Positions 2,432 through 58,345 of a DNA stretch of 58,646 nt are shown here, one piece after another. Origin of the DNA: an uncultured Clostridia bacterium (GTDB taxonomy: Bacteria > Bacillota > Clostridia > Oscillospirales > Ruminococcaceae); assembly GCA_947629335.1 (NCBI GenBank), contig CANRDI010000012.1, positions 1-58,646 on the forward strand, in the 5' to 3' direction. The notes under the pieces are model-generated. The model was not told where the DNA came from. It worked only from the letters and a program-made list of their open reading frames with translations, and did not search any database. Each line of letters begins with the position of its first letter. Within the stretch, counting starts at the first letter, position 1. The translations under genes and the position numbers were made by a program.

Positions 2432-3787
2432 TTAATTTTCGTCGGGTGCGGTTTCTTTCACTGAAATGTCAAGCCGAATGTCCGAAACTCCGCTTTCTTG
2501 CGCAACAAAATTGCGGATAACCTGCTGTTCGGGGTCGGAAAATTCTCTGCTTGAAACTCCCGAAAACAGCACATATTTTCCGTTTTCGCCGTACATTACT
2601 CCACAGCGTATTTCTTCAAGGTCTGTGAAAATTCCCGCCGCTTTTTGGGTTATCGCCGAGCAGTCCACAATGTTTCCGAGATCTTTTGAAAGCTCGGCAT
2701 TTTTCTCCTTTTCCGCGTCAAGCTGGGCTTGAAGGTCGCGTATGGTGTTCTCTTGAACGGCTATGGTAACTTTGTCGCTGTCGGCGTCGGTTTCGAGGCT
2801 TTTGTTCTGAGTGACTTGAAGCGAAAAACCGCCGAGGTCGTATTCGCCGAGCTTGCTTTCAAGCTCGGATATTTTTTCGTCCGAAACAGGTATCCCGACC
2901 AGCGACACGGAGATTTTTTTGTCAACATAATCGACGTTGCTCTGGACAAGTTGGGTATCGCTGAACACAAATTCCTTTTTCAGATAGTCGCCTGCGTTTT
3001 TTTCAAGCACGGATTTGTAGACGGTAAGTCCCGCGAAAAGTGCGCTCGGAACGACTGTGATTATAACTGCCGCAGTAATTGCGCGGCGTATTCTTTTTTC
3101 TTTTTTTGCGTCAAGCTCGGTGTGTGCGGGAACTCTCAAAAGTTTTGTCACAAAAAATGCCGACAGCGCAATGAAAAGCATATTTATCAAAAACAAATAA
3201 GACGCGCCGAGAATAAAGCTGAGCTGTGCCGTGGCAATTCCATAGCCGACCGTGCAGATAGGCGGCATAAGCGCGGTTGCGATAGCTACGCCGGGGATAA
3301 CGTTGCTGGTTTTCTTGCGGGTGTTTCCGATGCTTCCTGCAATGCCGCCGAAAAGCGCTATCAAAACGTCCCAAAGCGTGGGGCTTGTGCGGGCTATCAT
3401 TTCGCTTGTGGCTGTATGAAGCGGCGACAGCAGGAAATAGACTGTTGAAGTTATAAGGCTTATCACAACCTGTGTAGCAAAGCGCGAAGCAGCATGCTTT
3501 AACATTGAAATGTCGCGTATAGCAAGCGAATATCCCATTGTTAATATACCGCTCATAAGCGGCGAGATAAGCATTGCACCGATAATAACGGCGGTTGAGT
3601 TTACGTTTAGTCCGATAGACGCGATAAGTATTGCCATCATCAGTATCCACATATTCGCCCCGTGGATAATGGTGTTTTCCTCCATCATATCGTGAAGCTC
3701 GTCATAGCTGAGCATATTGCTTCGCATATCGAGGAGCTTTCTGAAATAATCTTTCACACTATGGCTGTTTTTTACCTCTGTTTTCAT
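2432..3787 (-). CDS. DUF389-family membrane protein
   Basis: The N-terminal half holds the conserved DUF389 block (ANMWILMMAILIASIGLNVN, then STAVIIGAMLISPLMSGILT) and about five to six membrane helices. The C-terminal half (about residues 260-451) is soluble, with a coiled-coil-like Glu/Lys stretch. The biochemical role of DUF389 (TIGR00341) proteins is not established. An upstream TTG at 3808 is possible in frame. The ATG at 3787 is preferred because AGAGG sits nine bases before it and because the promoter would start RNA near 3807, leaving no room for a TTG start. Monocistronic. Downstream lies repeat copy B1. Confidence 0.85.
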   Translation of the reverse strand: MKTEVKNSHSVKDYFRKLLDMRSNMLSYDELHDMMEENTIIHGANMWILMMAILIASIGLNVNSTAVIIGAMLISPLMSGILTMGYSLAIRDISMLKHAASRFATQVVISLITSTVYFLLSPLHTATSEMIARTSPTLWDVLIALFGGIAGSIGNTRKKTSNVIPGVAIATALMPPICTVGYGIATAQLSFILGASYLFLINMLFIALSAFFVTKLLRVPAHTELDAKKEKRIRRAITAAVIITVVPSALFAGLTVYKSVLEKNAGDYLKKEFVFSDTQLVQSNVDYVDKKISVSLVGIPVSDEKISELESKLGEYDLGGFSLQVTQNKSLETDADSDKVTIAVQENTIRDLQAQLDAEKEKNAELSKDLGNIVDCSAITQKAAGIFTDLEEIRCGVMYGENGKYVLFSGVSSREFSDPEQQVIRNFVAQESGVSDIRLDISVKETAPDEN

Positions 3788-3813
3788 TTTAACCAACCTC
3801 TTTTCCAAAAAGC

Positions 3814-3842
3814 ATTATACACCTATTCGGGGGAATTGTCAA
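3814..3842 (-). promoter_or_regulatory. Sigma-A promoter of the DUF389 gene
   Basis: On the - strand: TTGACA (3842-3837), 17 bases, TATAAT (3819-3814). Both boxes match consensus exactly. The predicted start near 3807 gives a 5' leader of about 20 bases. Confidence 0.85.
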
Positions 3843-3871
3843 GGGGAGTTTTGAACAAAGGGGAATAACGT

Positions 3872-4195
3872 TTCATCTTTCGTACCGCGCCGTAAGGCGC
3901 GGTATAAAAGTTTTTTGAAAAGGAAGACCAGAGGGAAAAACTTTTTTTCAAAAAAGTTTTTCCCTCTGGTCGCGGCGAAGCCGCGAAACTTGCGCAAGCA
4001 AAGCGCTAAAGGGTGTGGGGAAAACAAGAGTTTTCCCCACATTGAGATTTTCAAAATGAAATTTTGAAAATCTCAATCCGCTGGAGGGGGAGCGGGGGAA
4101 CCGGCAGGTTCCCTCCGCGGTTTGGTTCTTCCACAGTAATAAACAGAAGAACCACAAAACGGGTGCGTGCGTTTGAAGCAAAGAAACGAAATAAA
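3872..4195 (+). repeat. Family A hairpin mosaic, left locus
   Basis: A chain of hairpins runs nearly without gaps: ACCGCGCC/GGCGCGGT (about 3885-3903), GAGGGAAAAAC...GTTTTTCCCTC (about 3932-3968), TCGCGGC-GAA-GCCGCGA (about 3969-3985), GTGGGGAAAAC...GTTTTCCCCAC (about 4015-4040), TTGAGATTTTCAAAA...TTTTGAAAATCTCAA (about 4042-4077), a GGAACC-GGCA-GGTTCC hairpin (about 4097-4112), and GGTTCTTC (4124-4131) with GAAGAACC (4146-4153). The reverse complement of almost the same chain lies at 58,340-58,646. No protein-coding signal was accepted. Confidence 0.85.
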
Positions 4196-4261
4196 AATGT
4201 GAATTTCTTTCGGCAATGCACCTATAAATCAAAACAAGTTAATAAAGGAAAAACAACGTTT

Positions 4262-4528
4262 CCGCTCTCCGACCGCCGCGCAAGTGGCGGGACGAAAGTT
4301 TTTTGAAATTTTTTGGGGGAAAACTTTTGAAAAAGTTTTCCCCCAAGCCCCCTTTCAAAACTTTTATGTAACTTGTTGTGAGGGAAAAGTGCTTCCGCTC
4401 TCCGACCGCGCCGTAAGGCGCGGTACGAAAGTTTTTGCGAATTGTTTTGGGGGAAAACTTTTGAAAAAGTTTTCCCCCAAACCCCTTTTCAAAACTTTTA
4501 TGTAACTTGCTGTAATGGAAAAGTGCTT
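4262..4528 (+). repeat. Tandem pair of 133/134-bp family A units
   Basis: Unit 1 (4262-4394) and unit 2 (4395-4528) are direct repeats. Each begins CCGCTCTCCGACCGC, carries a GC-rich hairpin and then a perfect 15-bp stem, TTGGGGGAAAACTTT/AAAGTTTTCCCCCAA, with a TGAA loop, and ends with a CAAAACTTTTATGTAACTTG-type sequence and GGAAAAGTGCTT. A truncated third unit starts at 4529. The same units occur inverted at 58,165-58,345. Confidence 0.85.
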
Positions 4529-4880
4529 CTGCTCTCCGACCGCGCCGCACGGCGCGTCCGCTCGGAGCGCATGCGGGGCGGGGAAGATGGCTGCGGGTGC
4601 GTGTGTTTGAACCAAAGCAACGTAAAGTAAAATGTTAAAAGTGCAGGTTTTTTTAGGTTTGTTTTTTCCACAGTATAAAGTAAACGGAAAATGAAACGGG
4701 CGCGTGCATATGAACCAAAACAATAAATAAAATAGCAAAAATCGCAAGATTATCAATGTAAAAAACCGCAAGGGAGAAAACCTTTTAAAAAAGGTTTTCT
4801 CCCTTGAACCCTCTTTCCAAAACTTTTATGTGCCGCGCCTTGCGGCACGGTCGGAAAGCGGAAACGTTATCTCTCAACAA
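4529..4880 (+). repeat. Family A remnants downstream of xylB
   Basis: This holds a partial unit start (4529-4570), two copies of a GGGYGCGTGYRTWTGAA-type tail (about 4596 and 4699), a third copy of the CCACAGT hairpin with TTTTCC (4664-4669) and GGAAAA (4686-4691), then AGGGAGAAAACC...GGTTTTCTCCCT (about 4770-4804) and a GCCGCGCC/GGCACGG hairpin (about 4831-4850). The GGTTTTCTCCCT hairpin may also end transcription from xylB. No gene is supported between 3,843 and 4,889. Confidence 0.75.
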
Positions 4881-4889
4881 CACCGCATA

Positions 4890-6407
4890 TTAAATCTCGG
4901 AAAGCTCCGAAAACTGCTCTTTGAGCACAGGATAGAGCTTTCGGTAAATTGCGTAATATTTATCGTACTGTGCCGAGTTCTTACTGTCGGGAACGCAGCT
5001 TTCCTTTGTCTTTACTATTGCTTTGCAGGCTTCGGAAACTGAGCTGTAAGCACCCGTTCCGACCATTGCGAGAATTGCCGCGCCAAGAGCAGGTCCTTCT
5101 TTCGACTTCGTGATTGATATAGGGCAATTGTACAAATCCGCGAGCATACTTCTCCATAGCGGAGAATTTCCTCCTCCTCCGCAAACCGTCATTTCCCCGA
5201 CTTCAACACCCATTTCGCGGAAGATTTCAAGACAATCCCTGAGCGAATATGAAACTCCCTCCATAACTGCGCGTATCAGGTCGCGCTTTTCGTGCATTGC
5301 CGAAAGTCCGAAGAAAACGCCTCTGGCGTTTGGGTCAAGGTGGGGCGTGCGTTCGCCCATAAGATACGGCAGGTAGATAAGGCGGTTTGCTCCGATAGGT
5401 GATTTTTCCGCTTCTTTGTCCATTAAATAATACTCGTCAACGCCCATATTTTTCGCGGTCAGCTTTTCGGCTTCGCAAAAATTGTCACGAAACCATTTGA
5501 GCGACAGCCCCGCGCCTTGAGTTACTCCCATGATATGCCAGCAGTTCGGAACTGCACAGCAGAATGTGTGAACTCTGCCTTTCGGATCAATCGACAGCTT
5601 TGATGTATGTGCGTATACTACGCCGCTCGTACCTATTGTTGTAAACGCTTTTCCGTTTTCAACTGTTCCCGTTCCAACGGCTGCCGCGGCATTGTCGCCC
5701 GCTCCACCGACTACGGGAGTTCCCGCGTTCAGTCCTGTCCTTTCGGCAATTTCCTTTGTGACAAATCCCGTTATTTCGGGAGATTCATAGACCTTTCCGA
5801 GAAGCGTTTTGTCTATTTCCAGTTTATCAAGCACTTCCTCTGACCATCTACGCTTGGGAACATCAAGAAGCTGCATACCTGAAGCGTCCGAAACCTCCGT
5901 CGCAAATTCTCCCGTGAGAACATAGCGGATATAATCTTTCGGCAGCAGTATATGCGCGCATTTTTGGTAATTTTCGGGTTCATTTTTTCTGACCCAAAGT
6001 ATTTTCGACGCAGTAAAACCCGTGAGCGCGGGGTTTGCGGTTATCGTAACAAGACGCTCGGCGCCGACGCGCTCTGTAATTTCGTTACATTCGTTTGCTG
6101 TGCGCTGGTCGCACCAGATGATAGCGGGACGTATCACATTGCATTCTTTGTCGAGCATGACCAGCCCATGCATTTGCCCCGAAAGTCCTATTCCTTTTAC
6201 CTGTTCTTTTGGAACGCCGCTTTTGCTCATAACGTCCGATACCGTGTCAATGACCGCATTTGCCCAGTCTTTCGGATCTTGCTCCGCATAGCCGTTCTGC
6301 GGATGATAAAGCGGATATTCCTTCGCGCTGTGAGCAATAACAGCGCCGCTTATATCAAACAGAACAGTTTTTGTTCCGCTTGTGCCTATGTCAATGCCGA
6401 GATACAT
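4890..6407 (-). CDS. xylB: Xylulokinase
   Basis: This cytoplasmic FGGY-family sugar kinase phosphorylates D-xylulose with ATP to xylulose-5-phosphate for the pentose phosphate pathway. At 505 residues it has the normal length. Visible motifs are GIDIGTSGTK (4-13, ATP phosphate binding), GQMHGLV (77-83, the xylulokinase substrate loop), and GGAGDN (234-239), whose Asp238 is the expected catalytic base. A late Gly-rich segment, CGGGGNSPLW, belongs to the second actin-like lobe. The ATG follows CGGAGGAA. It starts only 11 bases after the xylA stop, so the two form one transcript in the order xylA-xylB. No XylR-type regulator is adjacent. Confidence 0.97.
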   Translation of the reverse strand: MYLGIDIGTSGTKTVLFDISGAVIAHSAKEYPLYHPQNGYAEQDPKDWANAVIDTVSDVMSKSGVPKEQVKGIGLSGQMHGLVMLDKECNVIRPAIIWCDQRTANECNEITERVGAERLVTITANPALTGFTASKILWVRKNEPENYQKCAHILLPKDYIRYVLTGEFATEVSDASGMQLLDVPKRRWSEEVLDKLEIDKTLLGKVYESPEITGFVTKEIAERTGLNAGTPVVGGAGDNAAAAVGTGTVENGKAFTTIGTSGVVYAHTSKLSIDPKGRVHTFCCAVPNCWHIMGVTQGAGLSLKWFRDNFCEAEKLTAKNMGVDEYYLMDKEAEKSPIGANRLIYLPYLMGERTPHLDPNARGVFFGLSAMHEKRDLIRAVMEGVSYSLRDCLEIFREMGVEVGEMTVCGGGGNSPLWRSMLADLYNCPISITKSKEGPALGAAILAMVGTGAYSSVSEACKAIVKTKESCVPDSKNSAQYDKYYAIYRKLYPVLKEQFSELSEI

Positions 6408-34021: not shown

Positions 34022-36232
34022 ATGGTTAAATCATTGTATTCAGGCGTTTCGGGACTTAAAACACACCAGGCGAAAATGGACGTTATAGGTAACAACATCG
34101 CAAACGTAAATACTACGGGCTTTAAAGCGGGCGTTGTTACATTCCGCGACATTTACTATCAGTACAAAATAAACCCCTCTGCGGGAACGGCTACTTCGGG
34201 CGGCGTAAACCCCGCAATGGTCGGCTACGGCGTAAGGCTTAACTCGACAACCGCAAATATGACCCAGTCGGGATTTACCCAGTCTGACTGGTGGGCGGAC
34301 GTTGCGCTCGACGGAGAGGGCTTTTTCCAGGTAATGGATTCTACGGGCAATATTTACTATACAAGAGCAGGCAGATTTGACGTTGACGCAGACGGCTATC
34401 TGATAAACGCTTCGGGCAACTACGTTCTGGGCGTTACGGGCGATCCGCAGGGCATCGAGCCAAGCTCCAACAGAATAAGAATAGTTATTCCCGACACCGA
34501 GGACAACTGCTCAAGCGCTACAAATAAGGTAAACGGCGTAAACGTTACGCTTTCAATGTCCGCACCCTCAAATAATACAAATATTTCCGTTACATTTACC
34601 GAGGCGGAGTTCCCTTATGCGACATTCAACAACGGCATACTTAACATTTTCTTCAACCCCGACGACCAGTATGGTTCTCAGGACGATTTCGAGGCGGCGA
34701 TAGCTACTGCGCTCCAGGCGGGCGGTGTTCAGCTCCCTGATGATGTAGAGCTTAAATTCGATTTTGAGAGCATTCCTGACGATTATCCCGCGCGCGCGGC
34801 AAGCAATATTGTCGAGGATTTCAAAGTTTCCACTAAGACTGCCGAGTATCAGTTCCACCAGACTTATGTAGAAGCAGGAATTACAAAGCACGCTTATATG
34901 ACCTTTGGTGTTCCCGATCCGACTTGTACGGATAAGGTCGCTATAACGGTAAAGGACGCTACTGACGGTGTTGACGCAGATGTTGAAGCTAAATATGAAA
35001 AGGGCGTTTGGAACCTTACTATTTACGGCGACAGTACTGCCGCGGACATAAACGAGGCAATAAAGAAAGAAATCGACAGAATAGAAGCTGCGGGCGGAAC
35101 AGTTTCAAAGCTCAACTGCGACAATATGGTTCTTCCTTCGGGCGATAAAATGAGGGAGGATATGCTCAAAAAACTTGTCTACGGTGTTGATGCTGATGGA
35201 AATGCTAATCCAGCTCCTGCTGATCCTGCTACTGCTCCGCAGGTCGAGCTTGTAGGCGGAACTAAGACGGGCGTTACGCTTGATGTCGAGGTTCAAGAAG
35301 CGGGCGAGTTCGGTAACAACTACAAAGTTGTATTCAGCTATAAGGCAGGCTATGGAAAGACAAGCGCCGTATGGGACGAGGGAACGCTTAATGTTACGAT
35401 TTGCGCGGACTCTACAATCGGCGACGTAAACCAAGCTATCAAAGAGGCGGCAAACGGTGACCAAAAGAAGATGTTGAAGTTCAATGAGATTTCGGGACTT
35501 GACTATGGTCCGAAATACGACTTTGACAGAAAGATAGAGCCGAGTACGGAAGAAGGTAAGTATGTTATAACCGAAACCGACAGAAACGGTGTTCAGAGAA
35601 GCGCGACAGTTGAAGATTTAAATGATTTAAGTGATATAAAGTGGGAAACTTATACTGCCGCAGACGGAACTGAAATTGAAGATGACGGTGCAGAACAATT
35701 TGAGGACGAAAAGGATCCCGATGATATCTGGCAGCCCGTATTCAGAGAGTCGTTCTTCGGCGGAAACCCTGCGATAAAGCCGACAAACGGAAAGGACAGC
35801 TTCTTTACCGAAACCGCGAAGAGCCTCGGAACATTTAACCTTGAAAACGGAAGAATAGGCGGTCCGCAGAGCTACGGCGACCTTCTCGATATCGTCGTTC
35901 AGACAGACGGAACTATCGTCGGACTGCACGCCGTACACGGCTATATCACGTTCGGCAGAATAGACATAGCTACGTTTGATAACGTAAACGGTCTGGCACA
36001 GGTCGGCGGAACGAATTTCAAGGAGACCGTTGCTTCGGGAGGTCCAAAGCTCAAGACCGCAGGCACTGACGGCGCAGGCGCGATACTCTCAGGCTCGCTC
36101 GAAATGTCGAACGTCGATCTTTCACAGGAATTTACCGATATGATAACCACGCAGAGAGGATTCCAGGCAAACTCTCGTGTTATCACGGTTTCCGATACAA
36201 TGCTCGAAGAGCTTTTGAGCCTAAAGAGATAA
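34022..36232 (+). CDS. flgE: Flagellar hook protein FlgE, enlarged
   Basis: The universal joint between rod and filament. N-terminal residues 1-40 (DVIGNNIANVNTTGFKAG) and C-terminal 690-736 (SNVDLSQEFTDMITTQRGFQ) form the conserved core. At 736 residues it is much longer than the usual 400-500. The extra central part contains three related segments, about 172-235, 303-360 and 416-479, each ending in a pattern like GxLNVTIxxDSTIGDVNQAI, similar to the flagellin hook IN motif. These should form surface-exposed domains. Between repeats two and three is an Ala/Pro-rich stretch (390-405) with codon use unlike its surroundings. GGAGG precedes the ATG. Confidence 0.95.
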   Translation: MVKSLYSGVSGLKTHQAKMDVIGNNIANVNTTGFKAGVVTFRDIYYQYKINPSAGTATSGGVNPAMVGYGVRLNSTTANMTQSGFTQSDWWADVALDGEGFFQVMDSTGNIYYTRAGRFDVDADGYLINASGNYVLGVTGDPQGIEPSSNRIRIVIPDTEDNCSSATNKVNGVNVTLSMSAPSNNTNISVTFTEAEFPYATFNNGILNIFFNPDDQYGSQDDFEAAIATALQAGGVQLPDDVELKFDFESIPDDYPARAASNIVEDFKVSTKTAEYQFHQTYVEAGITKHAYMTFGVPDPTCTDKVAITVKDATDGVDADVEAKYEKGVWNLTIYGDSTAADINEAIKKEIDRIEAAGGTVSKLNCDNMVLPSGDKMREDMLKKLVYGVDADGNANPAPADPATAPQVELVGGTKTGVTLDVEVQEAGEFGNNYKVVFSYKAGYGKTSAVWDEGTLNVTICADSTIGDVNQAIKEAANGDQKKMLKFNEISGLDYGPKYDFDRKIEPSTEEGKYVITETDRNGVQRSATVEDLNDLSDIKWETYTAADGTEIEDDGAEQFEDEKDPDDIWQPVFRESFFGGNPAIKPTNGKDSFFTETAKSLGTFNLENGRIGGPQSYGDLLDIVVQTDGTIVGLHAVHGYITFGRIDIATFDNVNGLAQVGGTNFKETVASGGPKLKTAGTDGAGAILSGSLEMSNVDLSQEFTDMITTQRGFQANSRVITVSDTMLEELLSLKR

Positions 36233-36276
36233 TTTTTGCGGCAGTTAATGCTGTTGAATAAGCAATGTTTGATGCG

Positions 36277-36314
36277 GAGCGCGCCTCGGCGGCTTCGGCG
36301 CGGAAAGCGCGCTC
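36277..36314 (+). promoter_or_regulatory. GC-rich hairpin between flgE and flbD
   Basis: GAGCGCGC (36277-36284) pairs with GCGCGCTC (36307-36314), with an inner CGCC...GGCG pairing. It is not followed by a T-run. In a 113-base gap, it may protect the 3' end of hook mRNA or reduce read-through. Confidence 0.5.
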
Positions 36315-36345
36315 TGCTCTCTTGCGTATAAAATTCGGTGGTTAT

Positions 36346-36576
36346 ATGATTTTTTTAACAAAGCTTGACGGAAAAACTTTTATGCTCAACGAGGAACTTA
36401 TTGAAACTGTAAACGAAACGCCCGATACGGTGATCGTTCTTGAAAACGGACACAGCTATATAGTTCGAGAGAGTATGAACGAGCTTCAAAATCTTATTTT
36501 GGAAAATAACAGGCAAAAGCGCAGAGCGCGCCTTATCGGAAGAAAAGATGAGCAGAGCCTGTCAAATAAAGAATAA
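36346..36576 (+). CDS. flbD: FlbD-family flagellar protein (SwrD-like)
   Basis: A 76-residue small protein with the family opening IFLTKLDGKTFMLNEELIE and the PDTVIVLENGHSYIVRES block. In Bacillus the homologue SwrD increases stator power. The frame is open from 36265, but those residues are encoded by the GC hairpin region; the ATG at 36346 gives the conserved start. Its ribosome site (GGTGG) is weak. It sits between flgE and motA as in other Firmicutes. Confidence 0.88.
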   Translation: MIFLTKLDGKTFMLNEELIETVNETPDTVIVLENGHSYIVRESMNELQNLILENNRQKRRARLIGRKDEQSLSNKE

Positions 36577-36615
36577 AATCCGGTGCTTCCGGAATAAAAA
36601 AGTGAGGGGTAAGTT

Positions 36616-37404
36616 TTGAATATTTCGCTTATCATAGGCTGGGTCGTTGCGTTTGGACTGGTACTTTTCGGCATATTCTTTCAGGACGGTGCGATAGTTC
36701 CGTCGAATATGATGAACTTTATCGAAATTTCATCATTGGCAATTACCGTCGGCGGCACCATAGGCTGTCTTATCGCGTCATTCCCGATGTCGTATCTTAA
36801 AGGCTTGGGAAAGCGCTTTATGATCGCAATAAAACCAAAGAAGTACGACCCGACAAAGTACATAGCAAATATCGTCGAGTATGCACAGGTCGCTCGTACA
36901 AGAGGTCTTCTTGCGCTTGAAGAAAGCGCGAACCAGTGTCCCGACCCGTTTATGAAGTCAAGCCTTATGCTTATCGTCGATGCAAACGACCCCGAAAAAG
37001 TGCGCGGAATGTTGGACGATACAATTATGTTCATGTGCGAACGACACGAAAACGGACGATCGTTTTTTGAAAAGGGCGTCGGAATTTTCCCTGCGTTCGG
37101 AATGTTGGGTACGCTGATAGGACTTATCAACATGCTTAACCAAATGGACTTCAACCACCCCGAACGACTTACGGGCGGTATGGCGCAGGCGCTTATCACA
37201 ACATTTTACGGCTCGCTTTTCGCAAACGTTTTGTTTGCTCCTGTCGGAATGGCGTTAAAAAATACTCACGAGCAGGAATTGCTTTGTATGCAGATAATCG
37301 AAGAGGGAGTTCTGGCGATCGCGGGCGGCTCTAACCCGCGTTATATCCAAGAAAAGCTCGAATTTATGCTTCCTAAGAGCCAACATTCGGCAGATAAGCA
37401 CTAA
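36616..37404 (+). CDS. motA: Flagellar motor stator protein MotA
   Basis: This stator ring subunit of 262 residues has four membrane helices and conducts ions with MotB. The conserved blocks GIFPAFGMLGTLIGLINML and TTFYGSLFANVLFAPVGMAL, with the channel prolines, are clear. The cytoplasmic loop (about 60-150) has charged residues for contact with FliG. It starts at TTG behind GAGGGG. A separate promoter precedes motB, so motA is on the upstream transcript. Confidence 0.96.
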   Translation: MNISLIIGWVVAFGLVLFGIFFQDGAIVPSNMMNFIEISSLAITVGGTIGCLIASFPMSYLKGLGKRFMIAIKPKKYDPTKYIANIVEYAQVARTRGLLALEESANQCPDPFMKSSLMLIVDANDPEKVRGMLDDTIMFMCERHENGRSFFEKGVGIFPAFGMLGTLIGLINMLNQMDFNHPERLTGGMAQALITTFYGSLFANVLFAPVGMALKNTHEQELLCMQIIEEGVLAIAGGSNPRYIQEKLEFMLPKSQHSADKH

Positions 37405-37568
37405 AAATCGGAATATTCAATAAAAATGAAGCTCGAAATGTAAACAGATTTTGTGAAAAACGGAGAATTTTTGCGGCTGAAAGTGGGTAATTTCCGCTTA
37501 AAACAGCAAAATTAAAGAGGCTCTTTCGTTTTTTAATTGAAATTTTGATAAAAATTTAAAAAAACTAT

Positions 37569-37597
37569 TTGCATTTTTGAGTGAAATATGGTATAAT
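37569..37597 (+). promoter_or_regulatory. Internal sigma-A promoter before motB
   Basis: TTGCAT (37569-37574), 17 bases, TATAAT (37592-37597) lie in a 276-base gap between motA and motB. The gap has otherwise only A/T-rich sequence. It would give motB, the C-ring, export and sigma genes a second start. Confidence 0.72.
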
Positions 37598-37680
37598 TGT
37601 TTTAAGCAATTGTGTGTTAGTGCGGTTTTTCATAAATCGCGGGATATTGTGAGTTATTTCGCTGAAAGGAGTGAGCGGTT

Positions 37681-38661
37681 GTGGCAAAGAAACTTCCTAA
37701 AAAACCGGAAGAAAATACGGGCGAGTGGCTTAATACATATGCGGATATGGTTACGCTGCTGCTGACGTTCTTCGTGCTTCTGTTCGCCTGCTCAAACCTC
37801 GATGAAACAAAGCTCCAGCTTATTTTCCAGGCTTTCCAGAACAGGGGCAACTACATAAATACGATAGTTGACGACCTTGACGCGAGCGCTGAGAACCAAG
37901 GCGGCGTTACCGACGACGAGCCGAACACAACCGGCGGCGAGGGCGAACTTCCGCAGAGCTTTGAAGAACTGTACCAGTATTTTGTCGAGTATATCGACGA
38001 AAACAATCTGTCGGACGCTATAGCTGTTGAAAACGGCGCGGCGCATATTACGATAAGATTTGACAACTCTGTTTTCTTCGACGGAAACAGCTATATACTC
38101 AAAGACGAGGGTAAAAAAGTTTTAAACGGCTTTATCCCCGCGATAAAGTATGTCCAGCAATCTATTCATACAATGACGATTTCGGGTCATACCGCCGACG
38201 ACGGAACGGCAAAATTACGCGATATGCAGCTTTCGGCGCTCAGAGCGAACAGCGTGCACCTTCACCTGATGTCTAAGGACACGATAGACTATTCTAAATA
38301 CAGGCTTAAAGCCTGCGGACCGAACGAGCCTGTCGCGTCAAACGACACGCTTGAGGGAATGGCGAAGAACAGGCGCGTTGAGATAATGTTGCTGAAAAAC
38401 GAGATCGACACCACGGATATGGACGTTATCCAGGACATTCTCCAGCACGACTATGGTATCGGAAACGGAAGCTTCGACCCGGAAAATCAGCAAAAGCCAA
38501 ACTATGAAACGCTTCCCGAAGGTTCGGCGGATAAGATCATAGGCTTTATCCAGGACAGCATAAAGGATAATGACGTTCCTGCGGCAAACGACGGCCCGTC
38601 AATTATCGACAGCAGCCAGTTTGTTGTGAGTGAAGAAAGCGAAGAGGAAGATTCCGAATAA
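37681..38661 (+). CDS. motB: Flagellar motor stator protein MotB
   Basis: A 326-residue protein with one N-terminal membrane helix (about 20-40) and Asp22 (YADMVTLLLTFF) as the expected ion-binding residue. A C-terminal OmpA-like peptidoglycan-binding domain (about 120-245, including ISGHTADDG and NRRVEIML) anchors the stator. The last 80 residues are acidic and disordered-looking, longer than usual. The GTG start follows AAAGGAG. The usual fliL does not follow. Confidence 0.95.
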   Translation: MAKKLPKKPEENTGEWLNTYADMVTLLLTFFVLLFACSNLDETKLQLIFQAFQNRGNYINTIVDDLDASAENQGGVTDDEPNTTGGEGELPQSFEELYQYFVEYIDENNLSDAIAVENGAAHITIRFDNSVFFDGNSYILKDEGKKVLNGFIPAIKYVQQSIHTMTISGHTADDGTAKLRDMQLSALRANSVHLHLMSKDTIDYSKYRLKACGPNEPVASNDTLEGMAKNRRVEIMLLKNEIDTTDMDVIQDILQHDYGIGNGSFDPENQQKPNYETLPEGSADKIIGFIQDSIKDNDVPAANDGPSIIDSSQFVVSEESEEEDSE

Positions 38662-38718
38662 CTCTTCGGCATAAAGTAAAGAGGAAATTCTCTGATTTGA
38701 TTTTTTGGGGGGATTGTT

Positions 38719-39708
38719 TTGGCTGATGTTCTGACGCAGGCGCAGATCGACGAAATGCTTAAAAACGTCGCAAGCGGCGTAGAGCCGGTCGTATCTTCTT
38801 CAAGTGATACAAAAATAAAAGAATATGACTTCCGAGCCCCGAAGAAATTTACAAAAGAGCAGATAAAACTTCTTGAAAGCATTTTCGAGAACTATTCGAG
38901 ACTTTTGTCGTCATATCTCACGGGATTATTGAGGCTGTATTGCAGAGTTTCTCTGGTAAATATCGAGGAGCAGAGATACAGCGAATTTAATAATGCCCTG
39001 CCCGACTATGTTATAATGGGTATGGTAGACCTCGGAATAAAGAACGACGAAATAAACGAGACCGATATAATCATACAGGTTTCAAATGCCGTTACATATA
39101 CAATGATAGACAGACTTCTCGGCGGTAAGGGCGAGTATTCGGATACAAACCGTGATTTTACCGACATCGAGACTACTATAATGAACGGCGTTATGAAAGC
39201 GTTTGCGGCGGCAATGAAAGAGCCGTGGCTGACGCATATAGATCTTGAGCCGAGGCTTATAGGCATAGAAACGAACTCAAGAGTTGTTCAGACGATAGGT
39301 CACGAGGATACGGTAATAATCGTGGCTCTTGAAGTGGAGATAAACAACACAAAGTCCGTTATTTCGGTATGTATGCCCGCAATAAACCTCGACGAAATAA
39401 TGAGCAAGTTTATAAACCGCTATAGTATTACAAAACGTAAGACCGACGAAAAGCGCGAGGCAGAACGCCGCGACAGCATTATGTCGGGAATTTCGACGAC
39501 CGATCTCCAGATAAAGGCTATTCTCGGAGAGATAAATCTCGATATGTACGAGGTGCTGACGCTTCAAGTGAATGACGTTATACCGCTGAATAAAAAGATA
39601 AGCGAAAATATTCTGGTGAGAGTAGGAAACAAGGATTGGTGTGACGGAAAGCTTGGCACATACAATAATAAAAAAGCTATTATGATTGAAAATTTTATAG
39701 GGAATTGA
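38719..39708 (+). CDS. fliM: Flagellar motor switch protein FliM
   Basis: This C-ring protein of 329 residues has an N-terminal CheY-binding helix (LTQAQIDEMLKNV), a CheC-like middle domain with the GG-type motif DRLLGGKG, and a C-terminal SpoA domain. TTG start behind GGGGGGA, which is a strong site. It follows motB by 57 bases, with no fliL between. Confidence 0.95.
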   Translation: MADVLTQAQIDEMLKNVASGVEPVVSSSSDTKIKEYDFRAPKKFTKEQIKLLESIFENYSRLLSSYLTGLLRLYCRVSLVNIEEQRYSEFNNALPDYVIMGMVDLGIKNDEINETDIIIQVSNAVTYTMIDRLLGGKGEYSDTNRDFTDIETTIMNGVMKAFAAAMKEPWLTHIDLEPRLIGIETNSRVVQTIGHEDTVIIVALEVEINNTKSVISVCMPAINLDEIMSKFINRYSITKRKTDEKREAERRDSIMSGISTTDLQIKAILGEINLDMYEVLTLQVNDVIPLNKKISENILVRVGNKDWCDGKLGTYNNKKAIMIENFIGN

Positions 39709-39721
39709 GGTATAGTTTCTG

Positions 39722-40942
39722 ATGGCAAACGGAAATGATGAAAACATTGAGTTTGACTCATACGAAATAGATGCGGTCGGAGAGATATTGAATATCAGTA
39801 TGGGTTCCGCGGCAACGGCTGTTTCAGAGCTGCTCAATGCAAAAACCTGGATAACGACTCCGCAGGTAAACGTTGTTAAAGTCGGCGACCTGAATTACGA
39901 TAATCTCGAACCTGCGATCTGCGTAAAAATCGTATATGTTCAGGGCATTAACGGACTTAACATGATGGTTTTAAAGCAGAACGATGTTCAGCTTATTTTA
40001 AACCAGCTTTTGGGAAATCCGCTTGTTATTGATCCGAATTTTGAGTTTGATGAGCTTAATATAAGCGCAGTTAGCGAAATAATGAACCAGATGATGGGTG
40101 CGTCGGCAACGGCGCTGTCCGATCTGCTCGGAATAACGGTCGATATTTCCGTTCCCACTCCGTATATAATTGAACAGACAAAGTTCGGAGATCTGTGCGA
40201 GATGCCGCTTGACGCGACGATAGTTGCGGTCACGTTCAAGCTCACGGTAGACGGCGTTATGGAAAGCGAATTTATGTCGGTGCTTTCGCTTGACCTTGCA
40301 AAGACCCTTTCAAGCAAGATGATGGAGAAGTTCCAGATGTCCCAGGATGAGCCTCAGTCTAAGGGTTCGTCCGCAGGAGATTCGGCTGCTCCCGCTTCAT
40401 CGGGCGCTCCGGCTGCTGCGGCTCCTGCGGCGTCTGCTCCAAAAGCCCCTCAGAATGGCGCACCCGCGCCGGCAGCTTCGCAGATGCCTGCGCCGGATAT
40501 GTCTCAACAGCAGATGATGTATCAGATGCCTCCCCAGGGCTATCCTCAGCCCGGATACGGCTATCCGAACCAGTATGCCGCTTATGGAGCGTATCCGATG
40601 CCTGCTCCGCCGGTCAATGTCCAGAACGCTCAGCTTCACCAGTTTGACGCTATGGATTTCGGCATACCTGCCGACCAGAAGGATAACCTGAAACTCCTTA
40701 TGGGAGTTCCGCTGGAGATCTCGGTTGAGATAGGAACGGCGAAGAGAAAGGTAAAGGATATTCTCGAATTTACACAGGGTACGATAATTGAACTCGAACG
40801 TCAGGCCGGCGCGCCTGTCGATGTCGTGGTAAACGGAAATCTTATCGCGCGCGGAGATGTGGTGGTAATTGACGACAACTTTGCGGTGAGAATAACCGAG
40901 ATTGTCAAAAACAAGCTTGTAGATAGCTTGGGCAAGGAATAA
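39722..40942 (+). CDS. fliY: Motor switch phosphatase FliY (FliN fusion)
   Basis: In 406 residues it joins a CheC-like CheY-P phosphatase domain (about 10-200) to a FliN/SpoA domain (about 325-400). Both phosphatase motifs of the form [DS]-x3-E-x2-N are present: Asp17-Glu21-Asn24 and Ser115-Glu119-Asn122, so it should be active on CheY-P. The linker (205-300) is rich in Ala, Pro, Gln, Met and Tyr, and looks unfolded. It is the third switch protein, 13 bases after fliM. Confidence 0.94.
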   Translation: MANGNDENIEFDSYEIDAVGEILNISMGSAATAVSELLNAKTWITTPQVNVVKVGDLNYDNLEPAICVKIVYVQGINGLNMMVLKQNDVQLILNQLLGNPLVIDPNFEFDELNISAVSEIMNQMMGASATALSDLLGITVDISVPTPYIIEQTKFGDLCEMPLDATIVAVTFKLTVDGVMESEFMSVLSLDLAKTLSSKMMEKFQMSQDEPQSKGSSAGDSAAPASSGAPAAAAPAASAPKAPQNGAPAPAASQMPAPDMSQQQMMYQMPPQGYPQPGYGYPNQYAAYGAYPMPAPPVNVQNAQLHQFDAMDFGIPADQKDNLKLLMGVPLEISVEIGTAKRKVKDILEFTQGTIIELERQAGAPVDVVVNGNLIARGDVVVIDDNFAVRITEIVKNKLVDSLGKE

Positions 40943-40993
40943 TAAAATTTTCTGAAACTTTAACCAGTAAATTTTAATCAAGGAGACAAAATT

Positions 40994-41356
40994 ATGGATA
41001 AGAAGATTTTACTTGTGGATGACGCGGCTTTTATGAGAATGCTTATCAAGGACACTCTTACAAAAAACGGCTATACAAATATTCTCGAAGCGTCTGACGG
41101 TGTGGTTGCGTGCGAGGTATATGCCGCAGAAAAACCCGACCTCGTTATTATGGATATAACGATGCCGAATAAGACGGGAATTGACGCGCTGAAGGATATT
41201 AAGGCGGGAGATCCTATGGCAAAGGTCGTTATGTGTTCGGCTATGGGTCAGGAGGCGATGGTTGTCGAGGCTATTAAGCTCGGCGCGCTTGACTTCATTG
41301 TAAAGCCCTTTAAGGCAGACAGAATTCTCCAGACTGTTAAAAAGGTGCTCGGCTGA
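40994..41356 (+). CDS. cheY: Chemotaxis response regulator CheY
   Basis: A single receiver domain of 120 residues. Acidic pocket Asp9 and Asp10, phosphorylation site Asp54 (IMDITMPNKTG), Ser82 and Lys104 (VKPF) are in place. As in Bacillus it likely binds FliM when phosphorylated and is cleared by FliY and CheC. It lies inside the operon between fliY and fliO. AAGGAGAC precedes the ATG. CheA is not in the window. Confidence 0.96.
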   Translation: MDKKILLVDDAAFMRMLIKDTLTKNGYTNILEASDGVVACEVYAAEKPDLVIMDITMPNKTGIDALKDIKAGDPMAKVVMCSAMGQEAMVVEAIKLGALDFIVKPFKADRILQTVKKVLG

Positions 41357-41372
41357 TTTCTGCATATCATCA

Positions 41373-41425
41373 GGCGGGTAAAAAGCCCGCCTTTTGCAGT
41401 TTAAGCCGCTTTAAAATGCGGCTTA
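41373..41425 (+). terminator. Two successive hairpins between cheY and fliO
   Basis: GGCGGG (41373-41378) and CCCGCC (41386-41391) form a short stem followed by TTTT, which is a plausible intrinsic terminator. A second stem, TAAGCCGC (41402-41409) with GCGGCTTA (41418-41425), follows. They lie in the middle of the operon, and I see no strong new promoter before fliO, so partial read-through is likely. Confidence 0.65.
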
Positions 41426-41479
41426 TGCTGAAAAACGATTTTTGCAGACAGCAGAGCAAGTTGTCAGGGGGCAAATTTT

Positions 41480-41827
41480 TTGGAATACTTTAAGTTGATT
41501 ATGGCTCTGATCGGCGTACTTGCGCTGGTTTTTGTGCTGTTTTGGCTGATGAAAAAGCTGAATTCCCGCGTATATATGAACAGCACCAGAAACCTAAAGA
41601 TACTCGAAAGGGTCAATATCGGACAGGACAAGTGTCTGCTGCTTATAAGCGTATGCGGAAAGTGTATGGTTATCGGGGTTTCCCAGAATCATACGGAAAA
41701 GCTGTGCGATCTCGAACAGACGGAGGAGGAAATTGCCGCGGCAATTGAGAGCAAAAGCGGCGAAAACCCCTCGTTTTCGGAGAGTCTGAAAAAAGTTATG
41801 GGAAATATGTTCGATAAGAAGAAATGA
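41480..41827 (+). CDS. fliO: Flagellar biosynthesis protein FliO
   Basis: A small 115-residue membrane protein with one N-terminal helix (about 4-25). The cytoplasmic part contains LKILERVNIGQDKCLLLISV, the conserved FliO/FliZ pattern. It assists FliP assembly in the export gate. TTG start behind AGGGGGC. Its position directly before fliP supports the call. Confidence 0.9.
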   Translation: MEYFKLIMALIGVLALVFVLFWLMKKLNSRVYMNSTRNLKILERVNIGQDKCLLLISVCGKCMVIGVSQNHTEKLCDLEQTEEEIAAAIESKSGENPSFSESLKKVMGNMFDKKK

Positions 41828-41845
41828 AACGCAAAGGAAGGGTAT

Positions 41846-42772
41846 TTGTTGCTGAAACGTTTATTTGAAACGGATAAGAAATTGGTACTGAAATTCTGCG
41901 TTTCGCTGTTTCTTACCATTTTATTTACGTTTGTTTTTGTCGGAACAACAGCATACGCTCAGGCAAACGGCGACGAAAACAACACTTCGGTCACCGACAG
42001 TCAGGATAATGAGGAAAACTCAAACGGCGGAGCACTGAATTCCGGAGATTATCTCGATACGCCTGAGTCGAATGTCGGCTCTTCGCCGACGGCTTCGGTG
42101 CTTCAAGAGCTTATCGGAGTAGACGCTTCACAGCCGCTTGAGGTCATAATACTGCTGACGCTTATAGCGCTTTTACCGTCGCTGTTGATGATGGTGACGT
42201 GCTTTGCGAGGATAGTTATAGTTCTCGGATTTTTGCGCTCGGCGATGCAGACGCAGAATACTCCGCCGAATATGGTTATTACGGGTCTGGCGCTGTTTCT
42301 GACGCTTTTTATTATGGCGCCTGTTTTTGCGGAGATGAACGAGATCGCTTATCAGCCTTATGTAAATGAAGAGCTTACTCTCGAAGAGGCTCTCGACAAG
42401 GCAAGCGTTCCGCTGAAAACGTTTATGCTCAAGCAGACCTCAAATGATGATTTAGAGTTTTTTGTAAAATTGTCAAACACGGAAGTTCCCGAAGAGGGTA
42501 TGACCGATGAATATAAAGAAAACGAGCTTCCGCTCACAACGATAATCCCCGCGTTTATGATTGGAGAGCTTAAACGCGCGTTTCAAATGGGATTTATGAT
42601 ATTCCTGCCGTTTTTGGTAATTGATATCGTGGTCGGTTCGACACTTATGTCAATGGGCATGATGATGCTTCCGCCCGCGATGATATCAATGCCGTTCAAG
42701 ATTTTGGTGTTTGTCCTGGCGGACGGCTGGAACCTTATGATAAGCTCTATAGTGGCGAGCTATAACTGGTAG
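41846..42772 (+). CDS. fliP: Flagellar export gate protein FliP
   Basis: It forms the core of the type III export gate with FliQ and FliR. The 308 residues start with a probable cleavable signal peptide ending near TTAYAQA, then a variable acidic stretch, then the conserved region (ITGLALFLTLFIMAPVFAEM) and a C-terminal pair of helices (MMMLPPAMISMPFKILVFVL). Two consecutive TTG codons (41846 and 41849) could start, behind GGAAGGG. Confidence 0.96.
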   Translation: MLLKRLFETDKKLVLKFCVSLFLTILFTFVFVGTTAYAQANGDENNTSVTDSQDNEENSNGGALNSGDYLDTPESNVGSSPTASVLQELIGVDASQPLEVIILLTLIALLPSLLMMVTCFARIVIVLGFLRSAMQTQNTPPNMVITGLALFLTLFIMAPVFAEMNEIAYQPYVNEELTLEEALDKASVPLKTFMLKQTSNDDLEFFVKLSNTEVPEEGMTDEYKENELPLTTIIPAFMIGELKRAFQMGFMIFLPFLVIDIVVGSTLMSMGMMMLPPAMISMPFKILVFVLADGWNLMISSIVASYNW

Positions 42773-42801
42773 CGGCGCAGTACATAAAGAGAGGTTTTCT
42801 T

Positions 42802-43074
42802 ATGACTCAAGATCTGGTTATGGAAATAATGCACGAAACGATTATGCTTGCGTTTAAGTTAGCGCTGCCCGTGCTTATTGTGGCAATGCTCGTCGGACTG
42901 ATAATTGCAATATTACAGGCGGCAACGCAGATACACGAGCAGACAATCTCTTTCGCGCCGAAAGCGGTTTGCGTAGGACTTACGCTGTTTTTCCTTGCGC
43001 CGTGGATGACGAATGAGTGTATAGATTATTTCAACTGGCTTATGGAAAAGCTGGCGGAAATCCCGATCACATAG
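42802..43074 (+). CDS. fliQ: Flagellar export gate protein FliQ
   Basis: A 90-residue protein with two membrane helices and the family segment LIIAILQAATQIHEQTISF followed by PK. It packs around FliP/FliR in the gate. ATG start behind AGAGAGG. It lies between fliP and fliR. Confidence 0.95.
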   Translation: MTQDLVMEIMHETIMLAFKLALPVLIVAMLVGLIIAILQAATQIHEQTISFAPKAVCVGLTLFFLAPWMTNECIDYFNWLMEKLAEIPIT

Positions 43075-43109
43075 CGCTGTGATAGGACAAGTGGGAAGTT
43101 GGTAGATCT

Positions 43110-43889
43110 GTGGCTGATATATGGAATGTCTTATTTACAGACGCAGTGGTTTTTATTATGGTCTTGGCAAGGACCGCAGGGATATTTTCATTTAACCCGA
43201 TTTTTTCAAGAAGAGGCGTTCCGAACACCTTCCGCGCGGCAGGGTCGTTTGTGCTGGCGCTTGTAATGACGGCAGCGGGAAATTTTGACTATAAACTGCC
43301 CGACGGACTTTTCCCGTTTGCGTTCGATCTGGTAAAAGAGCTTTTGGTTGGGGCAATACTGGGTTTTTTTGTAAACCTTATGCTTCAGGTCTTTTCATTG
43401 GCGGGCGAAGTCACAGATATGCAGCTCGGTCTTTCAATGGCGAAAAGCTACGATCCGACATTCGGAAACGCAGGACTTACAACGAATTATTACAGCTATT
43501 GGTTTATGCTGTACTTCTTTGCAGTAGGGGGACATAAAAGTTATATAGAGCTTATTTCGGTCTCGTTTGAAAGTATTCCTATCGGCTATCAGAGCTTTAA
43601 TACAAACGTTCTGTATATTATAGTGATGTATTTTGAAACGGTATTGACGCTCGCGCTGAAACTGGCGATGCCTGTTGTGGCGGCGTCGCTGATAACCGAG
43701 TTCTGCATAGGCGTTCTGATGAAAGCAGTTCCGACTATTCACGTTTTCGTGCTGAATATCCAGCTTAAAATGCTGGTGGGATTTATAGTTTTAGCGGCAA
43801 GCGCGCCCGCTGTCGGAGAATTTATGGAGATGATAATGGGCGTACTTTTTGAAAACCTGAACGGTATCGTGACGGAATTTACCGGATAG
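43110..43889 (+). CDS. fliR: Flagellar export gate protein FliR
   Basis: A 259-residue gate protein with about six hydrophobic helices. The N-terminal ARTAGIFSFNPIFSRRGVPN and the MPVVAASLITEFCIGVLMKA blocks are typical. It starts at GTG with a GGGAAG site upstream. In several species FliR is fused to FlhB; here they are separate and 281 bases apart. Confidence 0.95.
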   Translation: MADIWNVLFTDAVVFIMVLARTAGIFSFNPIFSRRGVPNTFRAAGSFVLALVMTAAGNFDYKLPDGLFPFAFDLVKELLVGAILGFFVNLMLQVFSLAGEVTDMQLGLSMAKSYDPTFGNAGLTTNYYSYWFMLYFFAVGGHKSYIELISVSFESIPIGYQSFNTNVLYIIVMYFETVLTLALKLAMPVVAASLITEFCIGVLMKAVPTIHVFVLNIQLKMLVGFIVLAASAPAVGEFMEMIMGVLFENLNGIVTEFTG

Positions 43890-43911
43890 CGGCAGGGCAG
43901 CAGAGCCGTGA

Positions 43912-44071
43912 ACATATAACTGCAAGGCTGATATGATATTGAAGCAAGTATTATTGCAAGGCTGATAATATGAGCCGTAAACAGTATTATTGCAAAGCTG
44001 AAAGGATATTGCAGCAAAACCGAAAACAGTATTATTTAAAGGCTGAAAGATATTGCTATAAACCGAAACGG
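43912..44071 (+). repeat. Degenerate direct repeats between fliR and flhB
   Basis: Three to four units of about 36-45 bases share the words CAGTATTATTGCAAGGCTGA, GATATTG and AAACCGAAA. Unit starts are near 43948, 43983 and 44027, with a weaker one at 43920. No open frame crosses it. The whole gap 43,890-44,170 has no gene. Confidence 0.65.
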
Positions 44072-44170
44072 CAGTTTAACAGAGATTATAAATAACGCAG
44101 TTCAATAAAGTGCATTAAAGCGATATTTGCGGTATAGAAACAGTTTCTTTTGCGCGGGGGTGGAGTTTGA

Positions 44171-45235
44171 TTGGCGGGAGAGGAAAAAACCGAAAAAGCC
44201 ACTCCGAAAAAGCGGCGCGACCAGAGAAAAGAAGGTAACGTTCTACAGTCGAAGGAGATCGTCACAGCGGCGTCTGTTCTCGGCATTTTTACCGCGATGC
44301 GCCTTCTTGCCGGGTTTATGATAAAAAATATACTGAATTATTCCGCGGACGTGTTTGAACACAGCGCGGGGTATGAGGTAAATACAGATACGATAATGCC
44401 GCTGGTGGTTGACATAATGACGGTCGCGGTCATAGTGGTCATGCCGATATGTCTTATAGCAATGGTGCTGGGGATAATACCGACAGTCGCACAGACGCGG
44501 GGCTTGTTTACAATGAAGTCGCTCATGCCGAAGTTTTCTCGGCTTAATCCGCTCGAAGGCATTAAAAAGCTCTTTTCCATGCAGGCAATAGTCGGCATTT
44601 TAAAGGGACTTATAGAGGTCATAGTCGTCGGGGTATTGGTCTATAACGAGGTGTCGGACAGACTTCCGAGGATAATCGCCCTTATGGACGCGGGTATTAT
44701 GCAGGGAATAGCATATGCCGCGCTTTCGATATATGACGTAGTTATGCTTATATGCATTATGCTGGTATTTGTAGCAGCGGGGGATTTCCTTTTCCAGTGG
44801 TGGCAGTTTGAGAAAAAGCTCAAAATGTCCAAACAAGAGGTCAAAGAAGAATATAAACAAATGGAAGGCGACCCGCAGGTAAAGTCCAAAATAAAACAGC
44901 GGCAGCAGCAAATGGCGCAAAGGCGTATGATGCAGGACGTTCCGTCGGCGGACGTTGTTATAAGAAACCCTACGCACTATGCGGTTGCGCTCAGGTATGA
45001 TCAAGACAAAAACCGCGCGCCGGTGGTTGTGGCAAAGGGTGCGGACTATCTGGCGCTGAGGATAATAGATATTGCAGAAAATCACGATGTTATGTGCATT
45101 GAAAATCCCGCGCTTGCGAGGGCAATTTACGCTCAGGTCGATTTGCAGAGGGAAATTCCCGTAGAGCTTTACGACGCAGTTGCGGAAGTATTGCTCGTTG
45201 TATATAAAGCGAAGCATAAGACGCTTCACGCTTAA
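44171..45235 (+). CDS. flhB: Flagellar export switch protein FlhB
   Basis: This 354-residue membrane protein switches export from hook to filament substrates. Four membrane helices (about 30-215) are followed by a cytoplasmic domain with the self-cleavage motif NPTH at 266-269. The N-terminus GEEKTEKATPKKRRDQRKEG is the family hallmark. It starts at TTG behind GGTGGAG. It is followed 33 bases later by flhA. Confidence 0.96.
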   Translation: MAGEEKTEKATPKKRRDQRKEGNVLQSKEIVTAASVLGIFTAMRLLAGFMIKNILNYSADVFEHSAGYEVNTDTIMPLVVDIMTVAVIVVMPICLIAMVLGIIPTVAQTRGLFTMKSLMPKFSRLNPLEGIKKLFSMQAIVGILKGLIEVIVVGVLVYNEVSDRLPRIIALMDAGIMQGIAYAALSIYDVVMLICIMLVFVAAGDFLFQWWQFEKKLKMSKQEVKEEYKQMEGDPQVKSKIKQRQQQMAQRRMMQDVPSADVVIRNPTHYAVALRYDQDKNRAPVVVAKGADYLALRIIDIAENHDVMCIENPALARAIYAQVDLQREIPVELYDAVAEVLLVVYKAKHKTLHA

Positions 45236-45268
45236 AATCTTTTGAATGAACAGGGGTGAGCAGAGCCT

Positions 45269-58164: not shown

Positions 58165-58345
58165 GCGACGTTACATAAAAGTTTTGAAAAGGGGTTTGGG
58201 GGAAAACTTTTTCAAAAGTTTTCCCCTAATAAAGAAGTAAGAGGAAAAGTCGGAGAGCGGAAACGTCTTTCCCTTACAGCACGTTACATAAAAGTTTAAA
58301 AAAGGGGCTTGGGGGAAAACTTTTTCAAAAGTTTTCCCCCAAAAA
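58165..58345 (-). repeat. Inverted tandem family A units
   Basis: Two units read on the - strand carry the GGGGGAAAACTTTTGAAAAAG stem pair and the ACTTTTATGTAAC tail, matching those at 4262-4528. The first stem ends in CCCCTAA rather than CCCCCAA. They follow the thioesterase gene and may act as its terminator. Confidence 0.78.

Follow-up and report, generated by a model that had tools for sequence, protein, structure and literature searches.

A modular family of hairpin repeats in a Clostridia genus, with stems that change while pairing is kept

A chain of long hairpins between two genes of an uncultured Clostridia bacterium is one copy of a dispersed repeat family. The family is built of distinct modules and is over-represented between convergent genes; its stems are replaced while pairing is kept, and the few mispairs in its multi-hairpin core are mostly G.U rather than A.C. 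It appears comparable in kind to the pneumococcal BOX repeats, to which we liken it by architecture and context and not by sequence homology. The explanation that we favor, and regard as fairly probable, is that these are BOX-like modular repeats whose stems are rewritten by exchange between copies and by template switching and are filtered by the folding of one strand. Repeats of the BOX-like kind are already known; the pattern of stem turnover is new. The window that we analyzed (58,646 nt) is the entire contig C12 of the source genome (G000; 2.48 Mb in 50 contigs), and G002, G005, G007 and G010 represent four sister species.

Anatomy and distribution of the repeat units

The window contains 17 perfect hairpins with an arm of at least 10 and a loop of at most 10, compared with 0, 0, 1, 0 and 0 in five dinucleotide shuffles, and 11 of the 17 fall inside the three clusters named in the original prediction. 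The RNA fold of the 3872-4195 strand (-155.8 kcal/mol) is far more stable than that of 100 shuffled sequences (mean -89.3, s.d. 5.8; z = -11.4). The chain of palindromes at 3.9-4.2 kb and the order of its modules, both described in that prediction, are thus real, and the two tandem units of 133/134 bp are present as two 124-nt copies that are 90% alike at a spacing of 134. A 55-nt repeat family recurs at spacings of 388 and 133. As had also been claimed, the copy at the right end of the window is inverted with its order unchanged (80% identity over query positions 59-319). The extent of the cluster had to be revised: the chain and the tandem units are where they had been placed, but the cluster runs on to about 4870, and its last unit, at 4769-4870, points the other way. 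The symmetry reported for both ends of the window proved to be an effect of assembly: the window coincides with one complete contig, and of the 100 contig ends in G000 at least 22 (13 starts and 9 ends, counted by hand) lie within these repeats.

The repeats have two layers (Table 1): palindromic S units arranged in tandem, and a core of several hairpins, L. The S unit (~134 bp) combines the GC-rich hairpin A with a long GGGGGAAAACTTTTGAAAAAGTTTTCCCCC-type palindrome, has inverted ends and is tandemly repeated; a 76-base piece of it has 157 matches in G000, antisense half-matches counted in. The L unit opens like S and continues with hairpins B, C and D, sometimes E, then F and G, and mostly H and I. 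Hairpin E, of the AGATAAAAAGCC type, is present in 9 of 45 G000 cores, and a AGGTTAAATGCC-type hairpin occupies the same slot in 8 of 78 sister-species cores. That the extra AGATAAAAAGCC hairpin is restricted to the right copy is true within the window, where it occurs at 58540-58566 alone.

Table 1. Positions of the repeat units, their hairpins and the flanking genes in the window
Feature	Position	Strand	Remarks
Left-end cluster: S-type unit at contig end	11-137	-	
DUF389 gene	2432-3808	-	one flank of the hairpin cluster
Hairpin A, GC-rich, CCGCGCCGTAAGGCGCGG	3882-3905	+	common to S and L; elsewhere swapped for CCGCCGCG..CGGCGG
Hairpin B	3926-3971	+	22 perfect pairs; L core starts here
Hairpin C (CGCGGCGAAGCCGCG)	3971-3985	+	
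Hairpin D (TTGCGCAAGCAAAGCGC)	3990-4006	+	small, variable; optional hairpin E directly after D in other copies
Hairpin F (TGTGGGGAAAAC..GTTTTCCCCACA)	4014-4041	+	
Hairpin G	4041-4077	+	17 perfect pairs; most variable stem
Module H (CCGCTGGAGGGGGAGCGGGGGAACCGGCAGGTTCCCTCCGCGG)	4078-4120	+	nearly invariant where present
Hairpin I (GGTTCTTC..GAAGAACC)	4124-4153	+	GGTTTTCC..GGAAAAC forms elsewhere (by eye)
S unit 1	4249-4381	+	A hairpin and long palindromic core
S unit 2	4382-4515	+	
Degenerate leftovers of I/tail segment	4594-4735	+	
S-type unit, opposite orientation	4769-4870	-	adjoins 3′ end of FGGY kinase gene; scored cluster end 26 nt away
FGGY sugar kinase gene	4890-6407	-	other flank of the hairpin cluster
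Two S-type units after right-end L unit	58170-58358	-	
Right-end L unit with optional hairpin E (58540-58566)	58361-58646	-	cut by contig end

Module H (43 nt, at most 6 mismatches) was found in 32 of the 40 G000 cores whose downstream sequence was long enough to hold it, and in 12 of 76 cores from the sister species. Among these 44 copies, 19 are identical to that of the window and 17 have one base different. Such near-invariance beside changing stems suggests either a sequence-specific role or a recent spread. A single orientation was kept in 46 of the 53 clusters in G000 stretches, the other 7 being mixed. The four sister species have the same B-to-G core with other ends (TTTTGAGCGGC..), and head-to-head inverted pairs of cores, ~600 bp when complete, occur in 18 of their 62 clusters. 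Because the same core lies within different ends across species, exchangeability extends to the core and the ends as well. Runs of CTAGAGGCTAGAAGC-like heptamers were seen in the sister species directly outside the GAGCGGC ends (flanks of L110, L111, L112 and L113) and also elsewhere; the heptamer repeat occurs in L042 and L043 as well, upstream of the DUF389 gene.

As the original prediction had called for, together with a search of the genome and its relatives, a covariance model was built for the core from an alignment of 50 distinct, pattern-extracted B-to-G stretches. Counting non-overlapping matches of at least 50 bits as cores, we found 45 in 35 stretches of G000 and 78 in 40 stretches of the four sister species. 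The G000 number derives from 49 matches of that score, contig-cut ones included, after four that overlapped a core on the other strand were dropped (L085 +, L096 4080 -, L077 4407 + and L100 +); all 78 sister-species matches were retained. Within the genus, 25 of 43 genomes match at E <= 0.001. The core is strong (E below 1e-20) in nine of the 43 (G000, G002, G005, G006, G007, G010, G013, G023 and G034) and weaker in 16 further genomes (weakest 5e-4), and 18 of the 43 gave no core match. Up to 71 candidates were scored per genome, a ceiling that G002, G005, G007 and G010 reached.

Beyond the genus, 9 of 197 genomes in an order-level sample match the core model, but the eight besides G000 score at most 37.2 bits and are read as single-hairpin matches; among the sampled genomes, strong matches are confined to one Clostridia genus. 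Searches of 50,697 phage and 72,556 plasmid records gave no core match, and viral contigs gave no exact match to one 34-base pattern of the repeat; these results speak against carriage by phage, plasmid or virus. The DUF389-gene loci of 30 relatives, 11 of which were also inspected by eye, contained no core and nothing at E <= 0.001 except one 31.3-bit match (L069). For a protein adjoining the cluster, named relatives reach 85% identity and come from bins called "Lapin" that are labelled uncultured Clostridia bacterium; we read the bin name as pointing to rabbit. No account of the repeat family was found in the titles and abstract openings of the open-access papers searched.

Stem turnover and the bias of mispairs

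Across the 50 aligned cores, the linkers flanking hairpin F are almost invariant, and hairpins B, F and G vary with pairing kept. The consensus fold has 39 predicted pairs, 14 of them with two-sided changes. Hairpin G exists in 53 distinct forms among 109 copies. The variable pair of hairpin F is CG in 26, UA in 19 and UG in 5 of the aligned sequences and never CA; the CA form occurs once among 117 copies.

The strongest evidence for whole-stem change comes from orthologous sites, where the stretches of sister species are ~88-95% identical. Across 14 comparisons, which are not all independent (one site was compared three ways, and another is judged orthologous solely by its position), we counted 17 two-sided pair changes in stems of equal length and 4 one-sided ones, each of the four going to or from G.U. 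Stems of unequal length fall outside this count; they held two more one-sided changes, both from A-U to G.U. Hairpin G was replaced in 10 of the 14 comparisons, identical in 3 and changed by an inverted loop only in 1.

Inverted loops are the footprint that template switching within hairpins is expected to leave. When distinct, equally long loops of G hairpins that share an inner arm are compared two by two, 4 of the 41 pairs are reverse complements, where at most ~0.6 would be expected at random by our own arithmetic. Loop inversion is likewise seen in E, B and S, each time in one or a few copies. In the part of PMC8794818 relevant here, template switching is proposed as a route to compensatory stem change, and compensatory change together with an inverted loop, expected to be its strongest support, is described as extremely rare in the rRNA data of that study. 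Exchange between copies is a likely second source of new stems, because many stem forms recur across copies and species, and a given change may be due to either process.

Mispairs in the L core are so few (38 of 2078 cells) that the pairing could be maintained by template switching alone. The 138 distinct stems in 117 of the 123 cores (six without a recognizable hairpin F were skipped) have 24 G.U, 5 A.C and 9 other mispairs against 2040 Watson-Crick pairs (binomial p = 5e-4). Stems that are related to one another do not represent independent events, and if each shared G.U allele is taken once, we estimate that roughly a dozen events remain. The 50 aligned sequences gave 18 G.U and 2 A.C, and a stricter count, in which stems were cut short of end-proximal mispairs, gave 6 G.U, 2 A.C and 4 others. 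An early count over B, F and G (33 G.U, 18 A.C, 45 others) was discarded for wrongly framed hairpins. Rare substitutions in the alignment were 9 C>T and 10 G>A, indicating no general strand bias. The S-core and A hairpins had 5 G.U and 7 A.C; against the L core, Fisher's test gave only p = 0.02.

A paired DNA process is symmetric between the strands, so that G.U and A.C would be expected to be equally common. The simplest reading is that the strand given here for the chain at 3872-4195 (+) probably takes a single-stranded fold, as RNA or as single-stranded DNA, and is under selection for it. RNA seems the likelier folded form, because gene ends adjoin many copies.

Gene context and mobility

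Of the core-bearing intergenic gaps, 28 of 67 are convergent, compared with 6 of 73 element-free gaps of at least 150 nt in the same stretches (Fisher p = 3e-6); these counts pool five genomes, orthologous sites included, with genes called by a simple longest-ORF script. Where the neighboring genes are in tandem, the core lies sense to them in 20 cases and antisense in 17, so a simple sense 3′-UTR role is not supported there. An upstream gene lies within the stretch for 41 single-orientation clusters of G000 and is co-directional in 28. Twenty-two of these 28 clusters start within 45 nt of the stop codon (four overlap it), whereas only 3 of the 13 whose upstream gene points away start that close.

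Repeats occupy the same gene junctions in four species (L096, L116, L136 and L147), with 81-95% DNA identity in the flanks; we take the genes at these junctions to be thiC-like and MATE-like. In a comparison of G007 (L119) with G000, synteny breaks near the repeat, the left flank leading to contig C2 and the right flank to C1, a pattern that would fit a chromosomal rearrangement by recombination at this place.

The elements have terminal inverted repeats, which are imperfect. Neither a clean target-site duplication nor a clean empty site was seen at selected sites compared by eye. Sister species mostly share the element at the compared sites, in stretches that were picked for holding it, so that gains and losses are under-counted; at one site, an L core in G007 and G002 stands where G005 has an S-type unit alone. 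Since sites are mostly shared, present dispersal looks slow. Four copies at separate places in G007 have nearly identical core and H-I stretches, which indicates that some copying or conversion is recent.

Genes for a Y1 transposase (PF01797) or a reverse transcriptase (RVT_1, PF00078) do not track the repeat family. PF01797 has three matches in G000 and occurs in 9 of 41 genomes but not in G001, G002, G005, G007, G010 or G034. PF00078 occurs in 17 of 43 genomes, G000 and G001 included, with no match in the core-rich G002, G005, G007, G010 and G034. Mobilization by Y1/RAYT and mobilization by a reverse transcriptase are both weakened by these five core-rich genomes, which lack both domains. 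The one Y1 gene examined of the three lies within an IS200-like unit whose ends, by eye, are unlike the repeats. This unit seems to be inside another transposase gene (L107 1000-2600), which is presumably IS3-like.

The original prediction had offered a mobile hairpin family or a structured RNA of exchangeable stems. Each of the two is partly right. A dispersed multi-copy family, stems exchanged whole and a G.U excess were all found, and with further copies present in the genomes searched, the idea of an organized element withstood that part of its stated refutation; current mobility was not borne out, the compared sites being mostly shared and the two enzyme families not tracking the repeat.

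Known repeat systems and alternative explanations

REP/BIME elements are dispersed palindromes in mosaics, often at the 3′ ends of genes. The present family is likewise made of dispersed palindromes in mosaics, but it forms chains of long, nearly perfect stems where REP has one short imperfect hairpin, and, unlike in REP/REPIN-RAYT systems, the richest sister genomes have no Y1 transposase match. The earlier statement that the cluster is not a REP element is right for the RAYT-driven kind; the family is close in kind to BOX/BIME mosaics. Bacterial MITEs, or foldback elements, have inverted-repeat ends and are intergenic. The family resembles them in both respects, and no conserved coding sequence was noticed in an unsystematic look; it differs in that no parent transposase was identified, target duplications were not seen at the sites compared by eye and the compared sites are mostly shared between sister species.

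No intrinsic terminator was found for the L-core hairpins B to I on the + strand of the window copy, consistent with the earlier view that the cluster is not a simple terminator. Sites were found at hairpin A on the + strand and at hairpin B and the 4769-4806 hairpin on the - strand; the scan yielded 5 sites compared with 2.9 expected by chance. A CRISPR had also been excluded, rightly, as the architecture is unlike identical short repeats with unique spacers and no Rfam match reached its gathering score. The window has 0 Rfam matches at the curated score, and the 55 matches up to E = 5 within 3800-4900 are all below their gathering scores, among them one to Staphylococcus S35 on the minus strand (27.7 bits, 69 required). 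A known Rfam RNA was rejected for this reason.

Palindromic candidate structured RNAs from human microbiomes are reported in PMC8040213, where some are suggested to be REP-like. Judged by their description in the relevant part of that paper, they resemble the present family as palindromic structures of gut bacteria; the examples given there are single motifs of 80-132 bp, and 230 of the 250 palindromic candidates have predicted terminators.

The BOX repeats of Streptococcus are a close match in kind. The portion of PMC3049150 that concerns them describes a boxA-boxB-boxC organization, modules gained or lost whole, predicted RNA hairpins and enrichment between convergent genes; in the boxE/boxF variants of S. 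suis the same inner modules are held in different end modules, and convergent enrichment is also shown by tolerated insertions. The family described here is likewise a set of modular, dispersed, intergenic repeats with modules gained and lost whole, and it too is over-represented between convergent genes (28/67 vs 6/73 gaps). It differs from BOX in belonging to another bacterial class, in its core of 6-8 hairpins, in having whole-stem alternatives with pairing kept and, in the sister species, in its head-to-head inverted pairs.

Under the explanation that we favor, new stem forms would arise on DNA, through exchange between copies and through replication template switching inside hairpins, and the almost invariant linkers between stems would guide the exchange. 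The forms would then be filtered by how one strand of the L core folds, most likely in read-through RNA, because surviving mispairs are mostly G.U and not A.C. Many copies lie where the 3′ ends of two genes face each other, which would be why they are tolerated, and any effect on the host (protection of mRNA 3′ ends, for example) is probably secondary. More tentatively, the L core may be a multi-copy structured RNA with its hairpins as alleles, in which whole stems would be replaced in one step by template switching and copy exchange and selection on the folded RNA would act as the filter. If this were true, a two-megabase genome would hold more than 40 parallel records of how stems evolve by compensatory change, and inverted loops would be the footprint of that process.

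Several other explanations were weighed against this proposal of BOX-like repeats with a one-strand filter. The L core might be a functional structured RNA (a 3′-end stabilizer, an insulator or trans-acting) that host selection keeps, its copies being functional sites. We consider this rather unlikely: the strand-specific mispair bias, the covariation, the near-invariant module H, the sites common to sister species and the starts close to co-directional stop codons (22/28 vs 3/13 G000 clusters) are in its favor, but tandem contexts are without orientation bias (20 sense, 17 antisense), 18 of 43 genus genomes have no match, module H is absent from 64 of 76 sister-species cores, and, given the tolerated insertions described in PMC3049150 as far as it bears on this point, the convergent enrichment fits such insertions equally well. 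It is also rather doubtful that the repeats are purely DNA palindromes, with pairing as a by-product of template switching and gene conversion and no selection for folding. The excess of G.U over A.C in L cores (24 vs 5), in an alignment without a C>T over G>A bias, counts against such a process, because a symmetric DNA process gives no strand difference; the inverted loops, the predominance of two-sided changes and the S-core and A hairpins without G.U bias are what it would produce.

A non-autonomous transposon moved today by a host Y1 (RAYT/IS200) transposase or reverse transcriptase is improbable. The core-rich genomes G002, G005, G007, G010 and G034 have no match to PF01797 or PF00078, no clean target-site duplication was seen at the sites compared by eye, and the IS200-like unit of the examined Y1 gene has ends unlike the repeats by eye; these points outweigh the inverted-repeat ends, the near-identical core stretches at four G007 sites and the three Y1 and the PF00078 matches in G000. 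That contigs end in repeats could point to an artefact of assembly or binning, which we regard as extremely improbable, as copies also lie inside contigs between different genes, 25 of 43 genomes match at E <= 0.001 and the same gene junctions recur in several species.

The family is a useful natural test of how long, perfect stems evolve without passing through a broken state: the same hairpins are available in dozens of copies, both paralogous and orthologous, among which whole-stem changes and inverted loops can be observed.

Two further features of the window were noted. A consensus promoter-like site (TTGACA, 17, TATAAT) lies at 3814-3842 (- strand) before the DUF389 gene, between that gene and the cluster. 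A flagellar gene region with FlgE/F/G-type and FHIPEP family genes extends over 34022-47362, in an uncultured gut Clostridium.
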